From the NCBI GenBank assembly GCA_023139775.1, contig JAGLMY010000081.1, positions 1-37,691 of the forward strand: a DNA stretch of 37,691 nucleotides, read 5' to 3'. Each line of letters opens with the position of its first letter. Position 1 is the stretch's first letter. The translations under genes were made by a program, and so were the position numbers. Origin of the DNA: a bacterium. GTDB taxonomy: Bacteria > Oederibacteriota > JAAXVQ01 > JAUVAV01. A model generated the notes under the pieces. The model had not been told where the DNA came from, did no database searches, and saw nothing but the letters and a program-made list of their open reading frames with translations. Shown piece by piece: positions 3,194-37,691 of this stretch.

Positions 3194-3361
3194 GTAATTA
3201 CAGCTATTGTTTTTAATTTAAACCGGATAGAGCCAAGGGCTAGGTCAATCCCCGCCCCAGGCTCTATAACACATGAAGTGAAAGATAGAGTCTACTCAGC
3301 ATATTTATTCGACACTCGTTTTCAGCTTTGGTTCAATAATTTATCTATTTTTTATTTAATT

Positions 3362-28390: not shown

Positions 28391-31300
28391 TTACGCCGCC
28401 CTGAAAGGCGATCTACGCATACGTTTGCGAAAGATATTATCAATAAGATCATCATTCATGCGAAATGGTAATGGTAACCAGAGATCATACAAAACCTTGA
28501 TATTTCTCCCATGTTGCAGCCATTCCGTTGGCAGCACCAATACTTGCGCTCGAGAGCCGCCCAATGGTTCTCCGACTTCGTTCCCATAGCCTGCCGCCAT
28601 GACATCAATAGGCAGCATGAGTTTCAATAATTCCGAGAAGTACAGCCACTCGGTTGTTTGCCGTCCGGCATCATCCATAGCAGTAATGTAATCTTTTACC
28701 ACCTGACCAAAGGCAATTCTGGTTTCCTTATTCGCATTCCCGGACATTTCAAAATAGGCTCTGCCAACCGATGATTTCTCATCTTGTAAAGCAATGGCCA
28801 ATTGCGAAGCTTGTGCTAATTCCGGAGCGCGTTGGGCCAGCTCTGTTTGCAGCTGAGTGAGATATAATTGCGGATTTATACGTTGTACCAGACCTTGCAA
28901 GATACGCTGGATTATTAACGGTTGAATCTGACTGAAACGCCGGAACATGGCAGCTAAAGGACGAATGATTCCATGCGCCCGGGCAGCCGGCTTGCGCGGC
29001 TCCGGTTCTTCCTCAACTATTTTTGTTTTTTTACTGCCTGCTGCCAAAAACGGTTTTTGCCCCTTATCCCGCACAGTGCTTACGCGATAAGTCACTTCAG
29101 CTGTGTAGTTCTTTTGAGTAATCGGTTTCAAACCGCGCGGATTTTTATATTCATTTAATCCATCCGGCGGCGAAGAGACCGGCTCAATAGCCAGGAATTT
29201 ATTTTTCAGCAGGTCCCATATCACCACAAACGTGAGGGAACGGCTTTGCTCCACTTCTATTAATGTGCCGTCCGTTTCATTATATAAACGTGAAGTAGCC
29301 ATACCCCGCTGATCATAATCCAGATCTTCCAACACTGCATGCCGGTCCGTGTCAGAAGGCTGTAAGTCTCTAAGGTCCAAATCCGTACCTGCCACTTCCC
29401 GGCGTGGATCTTTGGTCGGAATCATGTCCTTCATAACCACTTCTTTTTTTGCCGACGTGCTGATAAACCATTTACCCACACCGCGTTTGAACCAGGGATG
29501 GCTGCCAGTAGTAGCAATAGAACTGTTGCGCAGCTTAATCTTGCTTTTTAATTCATTGCCCTGCAGTGTATAAGAAACTGCGATCTTGCCTTTACGTCCA
29601 AAACGGCTGGATATTTCCGGATGATCCCTGTTGGCAAAAGAGGTGCGAATGGAAATCCCGTTTTTATCAAACTTTATTTTCTCCACAGTCCACGGCAATT
29701 TACGCACCATGCCGTGGTACACGACTTTGGCAGCGTCTTTTTTGGTGAGTCCCGCAGTAACCAGATCATCATCCGTTAAATCAATTTCATGTTCTTTGCC
29801 CTTTTCATCCACATAGACAGCTTTATTTCCAGCCACGCGATCAATAAAAGGATACATGACTTCAATGCCGCCGGAAGCCTGTACACTTTCAAAATACAGC
29901 ATTTCCTGGCCCTTGACTTTCCAGGATATAATCTTGCCGGCACAACCAGGCACTATTTCAAAAGAATTACCGGTATTTACATCTGTGAATATATAAGTGT
30001 CATACCCATCACGGCTGGATTGTTGCACATTATATCGGTTGGCAATAGGATTGATAAATTCCTGCGCAAAAGTAATTATCGAGATGACCAAAGCAGGCAA
30101 ACGCCTTGTCCAGGGATGCTGCATGGCCAGTATAATCCTTCTGGCTTCCCGGCCTGGATCCGGTGTGCCTTTAGGCAATAAAGCAGGTACGGCCTGTGAT
30201 TCTGGGATGAGCGGTTCTCCTGGCAGTTTTGCAGCAGGGGTTTCTACTACCGGCTCTTTTATAGGCGCTGGTTTTAGTTTTTCTGCTTTGCCGTCCCCAA
30301 CACGAATTTCAAATCCCTCGGCCAGAATAATATCCGCCTGCTCTTCGCGTTGTGGAATCCAGACGTGATGTTCCAGAATATCGTTCATAAAACTCATGAC
30401 CAAAGTATCAATACCTGGAAAAACCCTGTCAAAATCAGCTTTGGGATCAAGCAAACGTTCTACCCGAAGTTTCTCCTGATTTTTTTTGAATACCCGGATA
30501 TTAATAGCAGCTTCTAGTGCCTCGCTAATGCTCTTGGAAAAAGAACCCACCAATGCAAGCAAACCATCATCTATTACAATTATACTATAATCATTGGATG
30601 GATCCAGAGCGTGCTGAATTACTTCCATCTGTATCTCAGCTTTCTTCTGGAATAAAACATCAGTATCGATCACCTTAATCTTGGACGCTGGAATGCCGGC
30701 AAATCCCCTGTTTAACATTTGACGCGACAAATAACTTTTTCCGCTGCCTATGCGTCCGGAAACCAGAATAACTGCCCGGCCTTTTTTCGATATTTTATTT
30801 TTGACCCGGTGCTCAAGTTCCTTTAATCCCTCCTTCATGGGCAGTTCTTCAGGCCGTCGGTGCATATCATTCCAATAGGGCCTAAAGATAAACCTTATGT
30901 CTATCAGGGGAGAATCTATTTCGAAGCTGTCTGCCGGCGAACGCAAGCCCAATAAGGTTTCCATTTTCCAAATAATTGCAACTAATTTTTCAAGTTCACC
31001 TGCTTGCAAAGCATAAATTCCCATGGAATGTCTCAAATTCTCTAACCGTTCTACAGCTTGAGATAATTTTTCTTGCATTCGCTTTGCCAGCAAACTCATT
31101 CTGATCTCTTCGCGTAATGCTCTTAGTTCAGCACTCATACCGGATTGACCGGATTGCATTTGCAGGTAATGACTCACTTCATGCGCTACCTTACCTAAAC
31201 GGCGGTGTTGAGTCAAAACTTTGATGTTTTGAGGCAGTCCCAGCGCGTTGCTGGCCGGATCATAATAAGAGAGCGCGCCCAAACCCAATAATAACCACCA

Positions 31301-34300
31301 GGGATTAGTACTAACCATCGTCAGCTTTATCTGTTCGATCTCAGACGGAATGTCATCTGTCGCTCCATATATCCACGGGAGCCACGCGTCAGGCAGCTCA
31401 GTTCCCAGACCGTTTAATTGGCGCAGATCATCCCGAAAATCCAATAACTCATAATTGGAATCCGCTTTATAACGCAAAGCCCAAACATCCGGTACCCGAT
31501 ATATAAAATTCAATGTTAAAAGTGTTCCCGCAATCCATATACTGTAGGCCAGCACCATCATAACAGCTTTCGCCAGCCAAAATTCCAGTCCACGACCCCA
31601 TTGGAGCAGCAAAAAATGAGCAGCTAAACTTGCCAATATGGGAATAATCCCAACAAAGAAAATCGGTTGGCGGCCGCTTTTTTCGCGCAATTCATAATCC
31701 GGTATTTGCCAAAACATCAAATTTTTCAGACTAAACATAAGCCGGGCAAAGCGTAAGGCGCGGCGAGTCATGGTGTCTTCCCTAATTACCTGATACCGCA
31801 GGGTATGGCCCAGATGGAGTTTTGCCACTGTGGTTGTAAAGTGGGAAGGTCTTTTGTTTATATTGGCATTTTGCTCTTCAGGTCTGCTGGGCGACAAATT
31901 CAGCGCAGCCAGTATTTGGCGCGGCACGTAAATCTCCAGTTCATCCGCCTCAGCCGCTATTTTGCCTTTTTCAATTAAGCGCTCTACTGGTATCCCAAAT
32001 AATCGGTTTATCCAATACCTTCGGAATCCAAATGCTTTTTTATCCAATATTTTGATTTTAATTCTACTGTGCTTGAAATCAGCAAGGTTAAAATCATCCT
32101 TGGTAGCATACTCATACTTCAAATCAATTATAGTAGGATGCCGGTTTATTATCTTCTCAGTCGGCACTGCAGGCATCTGCCTGCCAAAAACAGAAGCAAT
32201 CCCATGCACCAAGCTAAAAAACGTCCCTAACAGTGCAACCAACCCCCAGCGAAGCGGAGGTAACCTGTCAAAAACCGGACTATGCTTGCGAAGGGGAATA
32301 TTATATTTTCGTTCTGTAGCCGGCGCAGCGTGCTTAAGCACTTGCGCAAATATTTGCTGATCAAATTCATTGTGAATGAAAGACGCCAGGAGGCCGAATG
32401 CGGCCAGAGGCAGGAACCACAGGGAGATGGCAGGCAGGGTTAAAAAGATATAAGGCAGCGTATGCTTAAATTGTTCCCGAAAATTTCCAAAAAAGCCGGT
32501 TTTCCAGTTATAGTCCTGAAGAAATTCCCTAATGGAACCCGGACGTTCTGCTGGAGGCAGTTGCCCGCGGGCACGGTACTGGGCAATTAATTTCAAGGGC
32601 TGATGCAAAAAAAGAAAAACCAGCAAACTACCCATAAAAACAATGGGAGTTCCTGTGATTCCCAGCCCAACGAGCATGCCTATTCCAAATAAGCCAACTT
32701 GCTCCAATTTTAAACCTGCCCGGCCCCATTGCACCCAACGCTTAGGGGAGCCGGGAAATAAAAACATGGCAAAGAAATATAGCAAGGAAGCTGCGGCAGC
32801 GGTGGCCGGCATTTCGCCGGCCTCAGCAAATTCAGTCGCTGCTTTAGCGCCAAAAGCATGAGATTTAGTAAGCGCGAGAGCTTCCTGAGCAGCTTGAATT
32901 TCCGCTAATTGCCGGAGGGAAATGAAACGAAAATTACCGTCCTCAATGGAATTGAATATATCCTCGCCATATACCTCTTTAAAGTATTCCCAGGTATCCG
33001 CGTGCCAAGGGCCTATGTGCATGGGAAGCGCTGACTGGTAAATACTCATTTCTGCAAGTGTACGCTTATTTTTAAAATTGAATGAAGGATCGAGATCTTC
33101 CGGCAAGGCAATCCCAATACATTTTAACTCAGCAGCGGTTTTCCCGATGGCAAGCAACAAATTTGTTAATAGAGGTTCCCCATCTAAAGCCGGCGCATTA
33201 ATGGTGTTGATGGTTAACACTTTTTCTTTAGCATCATTTTTACCCACGCCTAATCCGACATAGCCTTTCAATGCTTTACCTTTATAAACAAAATAATAAA
33301 TCATATCCTCATGCATGGCCCGAGTATAGGCATCATTATATTCCAGATCAAACGTGCAATCAATAATACCGGCCCGGCCCCGGAAAACGCCCAGAAAATT
33401 CTGCGGCACCAACAAATAAGTCTTATTTTCGTCTTCCTCAATTCGATCCGCTTTTCGGATTTCCTGAAAGACATCCGCAGAAAAAGCGTGCATTGCCGGA
33501 TAAAAACCCTTAATTTTTTGCACATTAATATCCAGAGCATTGGGAAGATGATGGATATAATTTTCGTAAAAATTCTCAAATCCAATTATACGTTCTGCTA
33601 GTGGTCCACTCTCCATCTGATTTACTAGGGCGGAATCCTCCATAGCATCACTGATCATTAATTCACACATCAAGAAAATTAGGCGTTCGGATTGTGCCTT
33701 GCGCTTTTGAGACAAATGACTTCTCAAGAAACGAAATGCGGCGAGGTAAAAAAGTCTCCGATTGGCCCGGAGTTCCCCAAATATTTCACTGATTGGTTTT
33801 GCCGGTATGGCTGCCTTGACCCTGCGATCAGGCTTCTTACCCATTTTAAAGAACAGGAACTGCAAGTATAATCGGCTAAGCTGAAAATCCGGAATTATCT
33901 TTTTTAGCTCAGCATTCCAATCCAATTGATCAACTTGCTGCTTGCAAGCGTACAATTTTTTCATATGGTTATCCAGCACATTGGGATTGACTTGCGTAGT
34001 AACCTGCTCTTGTGCGCCCTGCACGCTTAGCAGCAACGATTTTAATCCGTTGGCTTTAGTAAAAAGTTTTTCAAAATAGCCGTTATGTATTTCATCCAAT
34101 TTTGCCAATACCTCAACTCTTTTTACAAACTCCTCAAATCGAATTTTAATCCCGCAAAACCAAGTGCCGATATAAGCCAATTCCACTTGCCGGCGATCAT
34201 TATAATCAAATCCATTTTGTATTAACCTCAAGCCTTGTTGTTTGGATTCTTCCAAAAACTCGTGCGGATTCCGGCATGCGAAGTAGTCCTCAGTCGTGCT

Positions 34301-37300
34301 TTCCAAATAGGGAAATCCGGCTTTTACCCAAGCCGAATATTTCATATAATCCTGCTTTGACAATCCGCCTAAATCCTGAATAAGCGCTGTGATGAAACTG
34401 CCAATATAGCGCAGCGCTTGCTCCCTGGCTATAAAATATACCCTTCGCAGTCCTCCAGTTAAATAATTGATAAACCAGGCAGGATCACCGCCCTGTTGCA
34501 AACAGACCAGGCCGACCTTGCCAATCGCAGTTATTTCCGCCACTTCCAGGTTGATATTAATACTGAACAACAAATCCCGTAAAATCCAGGCAGGCGCTTT
34601 CCCTTTTTTTATCAATTCAGGCAAGATAAGTCCCAGCGCCAATCTTGCTGAATTAGAAATGTCTTCATTTTCATTTTCATAGGCACGGGATCTTATTTCT
34701 GCTAAAGAAAGCATTCCGTCATAAAATAACTTGGCGTACACATTGGCAAACATTTTAGGTTCATCTGTGATTTGCTTTAAACTTTTACTGCCATCAGTTT
34801 TGAAATATTCTGTTTCAAAAACCGGCAACGTTTTTTGCTCGCTCCGGATCAAAGCAATAATTTCATCCGCGTTTTTTATTATTTCAATCATTTCAGGATC
34901 TTGTTCATGCAACTGATCCCAAAAATAAGGTATATCCTCCTCTGTTTTGCCAACAATAACTTGCTGAGCAAATTTCGCAGCTTGCTGAACGGATTTATTG
35001 CTGGAGCACAGCATCCTTTGTATTTCATTTTCATTTATTAACTTTCGAAAAAACAATTGGGCCAGAACCAGACCCTGCGCTTCAGGCGCACCAAACCAGC
35101 CGGCTGAGAAAGCTTCGGCCAAAAGCAGCAGCAGTTTTCGAAGATATAATGTTTTATTTTCTTTTAACTGGGTTCTTTGCTGTTCATGCTGCAAACGCAT
35201 CCATTGTGTCGATTTTTTCTGAATTTCCCGGCCCAATATTCTGCCGACAAAACCTGGTAAAAATTTTCGATCGATTTCCGGTCTTTTTAAAACCTCAGCT
35301 AAATTGCGCAAAAGCTCTGCAGCAAAAACCGGTGCCGCTGTGGGATCTGATAATATACTTTTATGCAGCAATACCGCATGTGGAGAATCCAACCCTATAT
35401 CCGGTATTGCCAATCCCAGCAAGTCAATACCCGCTGTCACTGCCGCATACGGCCCAATATTAATCTGCATATTTTCAATCACAAAAAAACCTTTGACCTC
35501 TTCGCCCCATTGCAGATGAAAATTTTCCTTTAGGGATATCCGATTAAGGATTTCTGCTGCTTGAATAATACGCCTGAGCACTTTTTGATCTTCAGTTACA
35601 GGCCCATGATTATCCAGAAAATTTTCGTATCCTTTCATTGCTTCACTGATTAGCCTTTTTTCATTCGGTCTTAAGACTCGGAGTTTTAATACCATATGGA
35701 CAGGTTCCTCAGTCAATTCCCCGTCTGAAGTAACGCCCCGCGCCGAAATTCGTATCAGCTTAGGCCCTGGAACTCCAACCTCTCTTTCTATATCTTTGCT
35801 TTCTATTCCTGTAAGCGCTACCTGCCGCGAGTCCTTAGCCGCTACCAACTCCGGCTTTTTGCCATCACTTCGTCCTTCATTCAATAAAGCTGGTTTGATT
35901 TTTTTACTAACCTTCAATATTCTTCGTCCTACCACTCGCGGCACTCCGGCCAATTGCATATACCTTAAATCCATTATCCTTCGTGTTAAAATACTTAAAA
36001 TCAGTAGTCCGGTTATTACTATGCCTGGCATATTGCCGCTGACTATAAATATCGCCAACGCGATTCCTATCGCAGCGCCGGTCCAGGCCTGCGAACTTTC
36101 AATCTCTACTCTGGCCGGGATATTCAAAATCCAAGTCAATGCCTGTCTTGGCAAATTGAGAACTCTTTTACTTATTCGGTTAAGCCTAGCCGCCGGCGAT
36201 TGCCGTTGACTATGGAATATTTTTTCTATATCAACTTTTGCTTCTTCTGAAGAATAATAATAGGCAATATTATAAGGACCGATTTGCCCGGTTTTTTGAA
36301 AACTATGCTTTAAATTCCCTGCGATATTTTTTGCCGCTGATACAATCGCTATCATTGATTCACCGGATTTAGCTTGAAGCTTAGTGGGAATAATATGTAC
36401 ATCCGGCATTTGCTGGAGCAACGCTTTATTCTCAGTATAAAATTTATTATCCACAGCCACACAGACCGGCCCTGCTTGCGTGCTTTCTTCAAGCAGTGAT
36501 TTCAATTTCTCCACGCCTAATTCCGCGGCTGCTATCACTTCGCAGTTTAATCTGAAATTACTCGCGAAAGTCCTCTGAAAGTTTTTAACTGCTTCTGTAT
36601 GCTGAAGAAATGATTCCATAGCCATGATGTTCTGATTTTTGGCCAGCAGTTTTTCCAGCGGGGTCTGTTGGTTTTGCAGCAGGGAAAAATAGGGATTGAT
36701 CACATCCTGTTGGGTCAGGCCAGGTGTGATGGATACATAAGTTATGCCGCGGCGTTTGAGTTCTGCCAGCACGTGGTCTGTGTGAAACCCGCCGGTGATC
36801 ATAACCGACAGCTTTTCTCCGCTGCGGTTCATCTTCCGGATCAAATTGTCCACAAACTGAATGCTTCGCTCATCTGCCAGATGATAAAAATCATCCACTC
36901 GCTGCAAATAGTTGTCAAGGGCATACATCTCCGGGTCCGGTTGTAAGGGCACGGCATCCGACTTCGCTAAAGCGATGTCGGACAAGCATCGTGCCCTTAC
37001 GTTATTAATAAAATTGGTAAATTCTTTCATGCTGTATTTTTCCCGCTGAGTGCGAAATTCTGCCAACTCATCAGCAGAAACGGAAATATTCAGGAGTTTT
37101 TCTACGATATCCAGACGGCGATAGAGAATATCTAATTCACGCTGGGGCTCACTGATATACAGCTGTTGGCGTATGACTGTATCCAGTTTATCCAGTTCCT
37201 GAAAAAGCCGGTCCGGATTGATTTCCAAAGAAAAGAAGTTCTGGTTCTCACTTACAAAGCGCTTAAGCTGGGGATAAATATCTACCTTCAGTTTCAGCTT

Positions 37301-37691
37301 GCAGGCGCTGGTATATAGATGGACGCAGTATTTCAAAAGATCCAGGCTGCCTTCACGCCACGCCACGCGCCTGGCATCGAATTGCTTTAGCCGGGAGTTA
37401 TAAAGCGTGGCTTTCAGTTCATCCAGTATCTCGCGCAGGTCATAGCAATATCCCTGGCTCTCGGCATTTAAAAAAGAACCAACAGCCTGTCGGCTGGCTT
37501 CATACAAGGCCGGGGTCTCAATGCCTTCCAGGCGGATAGGATATTCGCCAATAGCCGCGTAAAATTCCGCGCCGGTGAGCTTGCCCTGTTTGACAAAATA
37601 GTCGCTGACTTGCTCTCTGGCTTGCTTGATCGGAAAATCGCTGATAGCCGCAGTGTTAACAGTATTAAAAGCGCCTTCCTCACCCACCAGT
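28391..37691 (-). CDS. Giant mosaic protein, 5' end outside the window
   Basis: At least 3,099 residues; the frame is still open at the edge, so the true start is not seen. Numbering below is from the GTG at 37687. Parts in order: a helical N-terminal region; a GGFHTDH motif (299-305) in a domain common to giant proteins of this type as I recall; two hydrophobic segments (about 533-565); long helical-repeat stretches (about 700-1400); an acetyltransferase-like segment (about 1463-1530, weak); several membrane helices (about 1629-1834 and 2004-2062); HEVSH (H2169, E2170, H2173), a metallopeptidase-like zinc motif; a P-loop GRIGSGKS (2311-2318); and an aldose-1-epimerase-like domain (about 2560-2865) with HGMVR (H2658), HPWF (H2730) and EPVSSPPD (E2835). 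No signal peptide can be judged. It carries a palindromic repeat in frame at 230-249. Overall function unknown. Confidence 0.85.
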   Translation of the reverse strand, partial: LVGEEGAFNTVNTAAISDFPIKQAREQVSDYFVKQGKLTGAEFYAAIGEYPIRLEGIETPALYEASRQAVGSFLNAESQGYCYDLREILDELKATLYNSRLKQFDARRVAWREGSLDLLKYCVHLYTSACKLKLKVDIYPQLKRFVSENQNFFSLEINPDRLFQELDKLDTVIRQQLYISEPQRELDILYRRLDIVEKLLNISVSADELAEFRTQREKYSMKEFTNFINNVRARCLSDIALAKSDAVPLQPDPEMYALDNYLQRVDDFYHLADERSIQFVDNLIRKMNRSGEKLSVMITGGFHTDHVLAELKRRGITYVSITPGLTQQDVINPYFSLLQNQQTPLEKLLAKNQNIMAMESFLQHTEAVKNFQRTFASNFRLNCEVIAAAELGVEKLKSLLEESTQAGPVCVAVDNKFYTENKALLQQMPDVHIIPTKLQAKSGESMIAIVSAAKNIAGNLKHSFQKTGQIGPYNIAYYYSSEEAKVDIEKIFHSQRQSPAARLNRISKRVLNLPRQALTWILNIPARVEIESSQAWTGAAIGIALAIFIVSGNMPGIVITGLLILSILTRRIMDLRYMQLAGVPRVVGRRILKVSKKIKPALLNEGRSDGKKPELVAAKDSRQVALTGIESKDIEREVGVPGPKLIRISARGVTSDGELTEEPVHMVLKLRVLRPNEKRLISEAMKGYENFLDNHGPVTEDQKVLRRIIQAAEILNRISLKENFHLQWGEEVKGFFVIENMQINIGPYAAVTAGIDLLGLAIPDIGLDSPHAVLLHKSILSDPTAAPVFAAELLRNLAEVLKRPEIDRKFLPGFVGRILGREIQKKSTQWMRLQHEQQRTQLKENKTLYLRKLLLLLAEAFSAGWFGAPEAQGLVLAQLFFRKLINENEIQRMLCSSNKSVQQAAKFAQQVIVGKTEEDIPYFWDQLHEQDPEMIEIIKNADEIIALIRSEQKTLPVFETEYFKTDGSKSLKQITDEPKMFANVYAKLFYDGMLSLAEIRSRAYENENEDISNSARLALGLILPELIKKGKAPAWILRDLLFSININLEVAEITAIGKVGLVCLQQGGDPAWFINYLTGGLRRVYFIAREQALRYIGSFITALIQDLGGLSKQDYMKYSAWVKAGFPYLESTTEDYFACRNPHEFLEESKQQGLRLIQNGFDYNDRRQVELAYIGTWFCGIKIRFEEFVKRVEVLAKLDEIHNGYFEKLFTKANGLKSLLLSVQGAQEQVTTQVNPNVLDNHMKKLYACKQQVDQLDWNAELKKIIPDFQLSRLYLQFLFFKMGKKPDRRVKAAIPAKPISEIFGELRANRRLFYLAAFRFLRSHLSQKRKAQSERLIFLMCELMISDAMEDSALVNQMESGPLAERIIGFENFYENYIHHLPNALDINVQKIKGFYPAMHAFSADVFQEIRKADRIEEDENKTYLLVPQNFLGVFRGRAGIIDCTFDLEYNDAYTRAMHEDMIYYFVYKGKALKGYVGLGVGKNDAKEKVLTINTINAPALDGEPLLTNLLLAIGKTAAELKCIGIALPEDLDPSFNFKNKRTLAEMSIYQSALPMHIGPWHADTWEYFKEVYGEDIFNSIEDGNFRFISLRQLAEIQAAQEALALTKSHAFGAKAATEFAEAGEMPATAAAASLLYFFAMFLFPGSPKRWVQWGRAGLKLEQVGLFGIGMLVGLGITGTPIVFMGSLLVFLFLHQPLKLIAQYRARGQLPPAERPGSIREFLQDYNWKTGFFGNFREQFKHTLPYIFLTLPAISLWFLPLAAFGLLASFIHNEFDQQIFAQVLKHAAPATERKYNIPLRKHSPVFDRLPPLRWGLVALLGTFFSLVHGIASVFGRQMPAVPTEKIINRHPTIIDLKYEYATKDDFNLADFKHSRIKIKILDKKAFGFRRYWINRLFGIPVERLIEKGKIAAEADELEIYVPRQILAALNLSPSRPEEQNANINKRPSHFTTTVAKLHLGHTLRYQVIREDTMTRRALRFARLMFSLKNLMFWQIPDYELREKSGRQPIFFVGIIPILASLAAHFLLLQWGRGLEFWLAKAVMMVLAYSIWIAGTLLTLNFIYRVPDVWALRYKADSNYELLDFRDDLRQLNGLGTELPDAWLPWIYGATDDIPSEIEQIKLTMVSTNPWWLLLGLGALSYYDPASNALGLPQNIKVLTQHRRLGKVAHEVSHYLQMQSGQSGMSAELRALREEIRMSLLAKRMQEKLSQAVERLENLRHSMGIYALQAGELEKLVAIIWKMETLLGLRSPADSFEIDSPLIDIRFIFRPYWNDMHRRPEELPMKEGLKELEHRVKNKISKKGRAVILVSGRIGSGKSYLSRQMLNRGFAGIPASKIKVIDTDVLFQKKAEIQMEVIQHALDPSNDYSIIVIDDGLLALVGSFSKSISEALEAAINIRVFKKNQEKLRVERLLDPKADFDRVFPGIDTLVMSFMNDILEHHVWIPQREEQADIILAEGFEIRVGDGKAEKLKPAPIKEPVVETPAAKLPGEPLIPESQAVPALLPKGTPDPGREARRIILAMQHPWTRRLPALVISIITFAQEFINPIANRYNVQQSSRDGYDTYIFTDVNTGNSFEIVPGCAGKIISWKVKGQEMLYFESVQASGGIEVMYPFIDRVAGNKAVYVDEKGKEHEIDLTDDDLVTAGLTKKDAAKVVYHGMVRKLPWTVEKIKFDKNGISIRTSFANRDHPEISSRFGRKGKIAVSYTLQGNELKSKIKLRNSSIATTGSHPWFKRGVGKWFISTSAKKEVVMKDMIPTKDPRREVAGTDLDLRDLQPSDTDRHAVLEDLDYDQRGMATSRLYNETDGTLIEVEQSRSLTFVVIWDLLKNKFLAIEPVSSPPDGLNEYKNPRGLKPITQKNYTAEVTYRVSTVRDKGQKPFLAAGSKKTKIVEEEPEPRKPAARAHGIIRPLAAMFRRFSQIQPLIIQRILQGLVQRINPQLYLTQLQTELAQRAPELAQASQLAIALQDEKSSVGRAYFEMSGNANKETRIAFGQVVKDYITAMDDAGRQTTEWLYFSELLKLMLPIDVMAAGYGNEVGEPLGGSRAQVLVLPTEWLQHGRNIKVLYDLWLPLPFRMNDDLIDNIFRKRMRRSPFRAA
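36943..37000. repeat. 58-bp palindromic element inside the giant ORF
   Basis: The GTAAGGGCACG / CGTGCCCTTAC ends are exact complements. An inner stem TCCGACTTCGCT / AGCGATGTCGGA has one mismatch and a 2-base loop. It is read in frame as residues 230-249 of the giant protein (VRARCLSDIALAKSDAVPLQ). The end sequence makes it a relative of the GTAGGG palindromes found between genes. Confidence 0.85.

Follow-up and report, generated by a model that had tools for sequence, protein, structure and literature searches.

A giant reading frame at a contig end and the family of exported mosaic proteins to which it probably belongs

What purpose could be served by a single bacterial protein of about three thousand residues that joins a protease-like motif, a P-loop and a sugar-epimerase-like domain to membrane helices? 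The question is raised by contig JAGLMY010000081.1 of assembly GCA_023139775.1, which was analysed over its entire length of 37,691 nucleotides (the window; G000:C343 in our numbering) and which carries, on its minus strand, a stop-free frame that runs off the contig end. A preliminary description of this DNA had recognised a giant mosaic protein, a view that our analysis supports, and had emphasised the kinase- and epimerase-like domains. Sequence comparison indicates that these are the least typical parts of the giant; overlooked were a constant exported head, a constant C-terminal domain, a tail of the -AA type and the existence of about 34 paralogues within this genome. Here we propose that the frame belongs to a polymorphic family of giants that are exported, that vary their cargo by recombination and that may be turned on other cells, a reading that we consider reasonably likely as a whole. 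The architecture on which it builds, with a constant head, an exchangeable body and a constant end, is very strongly indicated, and the use of the giants against other cells is the more tentative part.

The constant head

The frame and the portion of the head that it retains are placed in the window as follows.

28391..37690, minus strand: giant open reading frame (ORF), 3,099 codons and a stop, stop-free, 5' end lost at the contig edge
36596..37690, minus strand: C-terminal part of the constant head (residues 1-365), TIKI/EreA-like, with E5 (E90 of the structure model) and H303 (H382)

The preliminary description had counted more than 3,090 codons, in agreement with this frame. Comparison with another giant, L077, indicates that about 130 amino acids are missing from the N-terminus; the source metagenome-assembled genome (MAG) comprises 3.59 Mb in 362 contigs. 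In complete relatives some 130 residues stand at the N-terminus, with a hydrophobic signal that closes in (L)TWAFD and then HIQDLHCNYEVQ, and a Sec signal peptide precedes the head domain.

A search of the source genome with the window protein returned 42 places, nearly all of them matching its first 360 residues and lying in ORFs of about 1,500-9,000 amino acids. A profile built from the head found 34 places in this genome and 8-18 in every other genome of the order, all 8 of whose genomes have it; the 37 genomes taken from elsewhere in the phylum gave no match. Together the head-fronted ORFs account for about 8.8% of the source assembly, a sum in which several ORFs are cut by contig ends. 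The head was present in all 12 further genomes from which loci were taken, in 9 of 44 genomes of a third group (the phylum of R3-B46) and in at least 143 of 285 genomes of the Omnitrophota-type phylum, a survey in which five candidates were scored per genome and some counts are lower bounds. Fully examined Omnitrophota genomes hold between 1 and 71 copies, and stand-alone secreted heads of about 510-590 amino acids also occur there. The longest ORF fronted by a head in that phylum has 35,113 amino acids; this frame and another of 24,620 amino acids (G148:C37 and G054:C22) begin with the head and have unclear C-termini, with masked bases in one. Giants also stand in tandem, with a head close behind the preceding tail (G047:C14:19427-91574, G003:C34 and L147). 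An Omnitrophota-like head on a short contig of a MAG labelled Clostridia (L173) is probably mis-binned. A phage origin of the family was rejected, viral contigs having given just two weak matches.

The preliminary description had placed the DNA in Omnitrophota, an assignment that did not hold. Relatives at the level of family and order are labelled FCPU426, Firestonebacteria or Goldiibacteriota, FCPU426 being a separate candidate phylum, and Omnitrophota contain only distant relatives of the head (23-37% identity).

The AlphaFold model of the head is confident (pLDDT 82, pTM 0.79). Its top five Foldseek matches in the PDB are all erythromycin-esterase-like, namely EreC (6xcs, 6xcq) and BcR135 (2rad twice, 3b55), with E-values of 1.5e-3 to 0.15, probabilities of 0.98 to 0.38 and TM-scores of about 0.25; ChaN (2g5g) and HopBA1 (5t09) appear further down. 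This is the list given for the TIKI superfamily (PMC6254334). Four residues, D60, H62, E90 and H382, are invariant across the aligned lineages, from FCPU426-type bacteria to Omnitrophota, and in the model each appears to follow a strand of the sheet, a D-x-H...E...H arrangement behind three strands that also recalls the superfamily. The 28 residues from H62 to E90 equal the spacing of H85/E113 in BcR135 and of H3902/E3930 in VvRRSP (PMC6254334). Unlike the members of the TIKI superfamily with which it was compared (EreC, BcR135, ChaN, HopBA1 and VvRRSP), the head has a long helical insert, always lies behind a signal peptide and, in the majority of copies, continues into a giant body. A profile search of the head against the PDB found nothing, and since no ordinary EreA or ChaN family was found by profile in 44 genomes of the phylum, the head is not tied to either by profile. 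Weak matches of 8 of 27 heads to Epsilon_antitox were judged to be chance hits on helices.

The constant C-terminal end

The far end of the protein is also shared.

28394..28939, minus strand: constant C-terminal domain (residues 2918-3099), ending in ...FRAA, homologous in 25 giants

In these 25 giants the domain, of about 180 residues, lies at the C-terminus or within 15 residues of it. Its structure model is confident, and a comparison with PDB folds gave no usable match. The last two residues are a small residue followed by A or V (-AA, -SA or -SV) in 49 of 54 giants, as against 33 of 304 control ORFs (p 2e-32), many of these resembling truncated giants. Other lineages have it too: among their giants longer than 9,000 amino acids, most of the closed ends that were fetched carry the same tail. 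It is absent from three true stand-alone heads, which end in acidic residues. In three genomes of the order the transfer-messenger RNA tag ends in ALAA, a degron that the -AA tails resemble without copying it, and one idea is that the tail may be a signal recognised by a protease. No hydrophobic segment lies in the final 500 residues of the window protein, and a sorting signal of the PEP-CTERM, LPXTG or similar type, in which a C-terminal motif is joined by a membrane helix and a basic tail, was not found there.

Exchangeable bodies and their cargo

Between these constant ends the bodies are interchangeable. In 378 pairwise comparisons no pair of heads falls below 38% identity (median 48%), and the median alignable share of the remainder is 0%. 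Between the window protein and L077, 88% of head residues are the same, as are 97% of nucleotides over the first 40 codons, and their identity drops near residue 365 to the level of unrelated sequences; similar cliffs occur near residue 490 (L083/L085) and residue 614 (L081/L083). Such abrupt loss of identity behind heads up to 97% identical in DNA is, to judge from the alignments, the mark of recombination, and it is probably because of recombination among heads that the contig breaks within one. The body of the window protein is laid out as follows.

35966..36085, minus strand: hydrophobic hairpin (residues 536-575), within a recurring module (518-615)
35114..35809, minus strand: module C (628-859), eight copies among giants
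32789..35083, minus strand: residues 870-1634, no relative among the fetched giants, judged helical by eye
31694..32788, minus strand: modules G and H (1635-1999), with membrane segments, common to L077 at about 50% identity
31097..31681, minus strand: membrane metalloprotease-like module (2004-2198), a hydrophobic hairpin followed by AHEVSH
30311..30823, minus strand: P-loop NTPase domain (about 2290-2460), GRIGSGKS, weakly uridine-kinase-like
29075..30013, minus strand: aldose-1-epimerase-like domain (2560-2872), HGMVR, HPWF and LAIEP

Several of these modules recur. Most other copies of module C have a HELGE-type motif, which is degenerate in the window (RNLAE). Modules G and H lie about 480 residues apart in L077, and G has further copies in other giants. 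The HEVSH motif is where the preliminary description had put it (residue 2170, 31183-31169), and HExxH is kept in all nine copies of the metalloprotease-like module that reach the motif; a pair of glutamates 22-32 residues beyond it, not aligned in all, is a candidate third zinc ligand in most copies. Eight hydrophobic segments of membrane length were counted, where at least seven had been claimed; positive-inside counts gave no clear membrane topology for the protein. No profile confirmed the helical repeats also claimed.

Searches with the whole protein against Pfam, NCBIfam and PDB profiles found the epimerase domain alone, at 28.9 bits for PF01263 (Aldose_epim; cut-off 27). Comparison of this region with a known structure, proposed in the preliminary description, matched it to PDB 3k25 (Slr1438) at E 5.7e-9: HGMVR (residue 2659), HPWF (2731) and LAIEP correspond to HGFAR, HPYF and LCLEP, the second histidine, where the alignment is shifted, having been matched by eye, and the glutamate motif reads on as EPVSSPPD (2836). 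Both histidines and the glutamate are retained, as the preliminary description had stated; unlike 3k25, the domain forms some 300 residues inside an exported giant of 3,099 amino acids and is unique to one copy. The P-loop claimed there is likewise present (GRIGSGKS, residue 2312, 30757-30734), and its resemblance to uridine kinase is weak, at 15.6 bits against a cut-off of 180 for NCBIfam PRK05480. Neither domain occurs in any other fetched giant, and 43 other genomes of the phylum yielded no relatives of them save one weak P-loop match. The pair is one-off cargo.

Other giants have cargo of their own. An exported giant (L079:377-10297) contains a SecA-like motor, with GSGKT and GRVGR kept and Walker B altered, next to helix-turn-helix motifs of the Fis type; another (L083:971-8719) has an intact J domain (HPD) at residues 842-904, and a third (L085:3761-14647) a pseudokinase, with HTSINSKN in place of HRD..N and NFS in place of DFG. 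Further cargo includes an AAA domain with leucine-rich repeats, a methyltransferase and an NAD-epimerase. The motifs of the J domain (HPD), the AAA domain (Walker A/B), the NAD-epimerase (glycine loop) and the SecA-like motor (GSGKT) are intact. In L068 a rhomboid-like stretch was noted by eye at residues of about 3270-3360 (WQLVTHMFLHGSLIH), behind a second HExxH module.

The bodies appear to evolve fast but under constraint: the ratio of non-synonymous to synonymous substitutions (dN/dS) was 0.23-0.49 in windows over 2,000 residues of orthologous giants of sister species, and 0.37-0.53 in a second pair. In L067/L068 (G002:C12) a giant of 9,269 amino acids resumes in another frame for 1,013 amino acids with a normal C-terminal domain, probably through a frameshift, either genuine or introduced by the assembly.

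Beside the giant, positions 182-28000 of the window hold the housekeeping genes of a diderm, among them Skp, BamA, TamB, ClpC and a McsB-type arginine kinase; a MacB/FtsX-type ABC transporter, LysRS, SecD, SecF, RsmD, CheY and CheW are encoded in the same interval.

What the giants may do

According to our model, the N-terminal Sec signal peptide would direct co-translational export of a head of the TIKI/erythromycin-esterase/ChaN fold, which, with its D-x-H...E...H set, would hydrolyse peptide or ester bonds, either in the periplasm or on the cell surface. The body behind it would be assembled by recombination from membrane hairpins with HExxH metalloprotease domains and from captured enzyme domains, here the P-loop and the epimerase. 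The constant end is the C-terminal domain, whose closing small-residue -AA tail would be read by a protease that recognises C-termini, such as one like ClpXP or Tsp/Prc, for quality control or processing. Finally, the bodies would be cargo or binding parts deployed on other cells, which would explain both their copy number and their diversity. We infer this function from that diversity and copy number and from the published proteomics of one Omnitrophota predator, V. archaeovorus, for which a 3-fold increase of giant-ORF peptides in attached cells is reported (PMC10066038). The window giant may have a part in predation, on which the preliminary description had speculated.

MARTX and other polymorphic secreted proteins, our working analogy, likewise have constant ends around an exchangeable middle. 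The giants would differ from them in using a Sec signal peptide instead of type I secretion and in having internal membrane hairpins.

Several observations weigh against the proposal. The signal peptide of the window gene and the D-x-H motif of its head fall in the absent 5' part, so that both are known from relatives alone. The Foldseek support is weak, with TM-scores of 0.25 and no match at E 1e-3; the first glutamate of the TIKI set of two histidines and two glutamates is replaced by an invariant aspartate; and no head matched Pfam Erythro_esteras or Cofac_haem_bdg above the cut-off, the best being ChaN at E 0.063 for one of 27 heads. For these reasons we call the head TIKI-like and probably a hydrolase, and claim neither membership of the superfamily nor a substrate. 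No link to predation is given by the neighbouring genes or by the genome content, and neither the RTX repeats nor the autoprocessing (cysteine protease) domain of known giant toxins gave a Pfam match in the window protein or 14 related giants. In addition, several captured domains are of cytoplasmic type (ATP, NAD, SecA, DnaJ) and fit the periplasm poorly. Such cargo would either be turned inwards by the membrane hairpins, or act in another cell, or serve in binding only.

The strongest rival, though an unlikely one, is that the giants reside in the envelope and serve their own cell as a coat or scaffold, anchored in the membrane or lying at the surface, in which degenerate enzyme modules would act as binding domains. 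Membrane-length hydrophobic segments in all giants examined, the missing HE motif of the window's module C and the pseudokinase of L085 speak for such a scaffold, and a coat has been proposed for V. archaeovorus (PMC10066038). However, the HExxH of the metalloprotease-like copies and the invariant residues of the head have been kept, and 8-34 divergent copies per genome with swapped bodies would be unusual for a structural coat.

Less likely still is a polyprotein that is cut into many proteins, with its own HExxH and rhomboid-like modules as the possible proteases. Membrane protease-like modules are indeed repeated within giants, and the stand-alone heads of Omnitrophota would suit this reading, but no repeated cleavage-site motif was identified, without a systematic search, and no internal signal peptide was noticed. 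It is improbable that the family is mainly a store of functionless fusions accumulating behind a promoter and a signal peptide. The captured domains are mutually unrelated, the joints are sharp and non-homologous, and one in-copy stop (C95) and the probable L067/L068 frameshift are on record; yet almost all frames are open across 2,000-9,000 codons, the C-terminal domain and tail are conserved at the far end, and the dN/dS values of 0.23-0.53 over the variable body already weaken this explanation. A cytoplasmic multi-enzyme of sugar metabolism, suggested by the adjacent P-loop and epimerase domains, is highly improbable and was rejected as a pathway, as relatives begin with a signal peptide and have SecA, DnaJ, methyltransferase or kinase domains in place of this pair. 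Although the contig ends within a repeat, the head, a fusion of several genes by assembly error, raised in the preliminary description, is practically negligible and in effect refuted by the single frame and by a plan that recurs in MAGs of independent origin as well as in a chromosome-labelled record (L163); chance alone would not be expected to keep 3,099 codons free of stops, and other giants contain homologues, at the protein level, of several of its stretches, so that a chance frame and an assembly join are both untenable.

Returning to an exported family with recombining cargo, the head, the tail, the exchange of bodies, the conservation of HExxH and the retained active-site residues are all apparent at the level of sequence. 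Giant ORFs are already known in Omnitrophota, including one of 39,678 amino acids in V. archaeovorus, and are described as showing little conservation, their function being unknown (Seymour et al., 2023; PMC10066038). The window giant resembles them as a very long single frame with membrane helices and few annotated domains, and the head fronts many such ORFs; it comes from another phylum and lies below the 20-kb threshold used there, and the shared head, tail and body exchange are not part of the available portion of that account. A literature search, with preprints outside it, found no published link of these giants to a head of erythromycin-esterase type; priority for the shared head is not established. 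A broader and doubtful extension would make many giants of Omnitrophota, FCPU426-type bacteria and a further lineage one family built on one plan for multi-effector delivery on neighbouring cells, with an exported TIKI-fold enzyme first, then a body that recombines and takes up enzyme domains from elsewhere, and last a C-terminal tail read by the cell's proteases.

Few traits of these uncultured bacteria are as odd as their giant genes, and the source genome devotes about 9% of its length to one recombining gene family. With a shared head that has a recognisable active site, and a shared end and tail, hundreds of unrelated-looking giants become one testable family.
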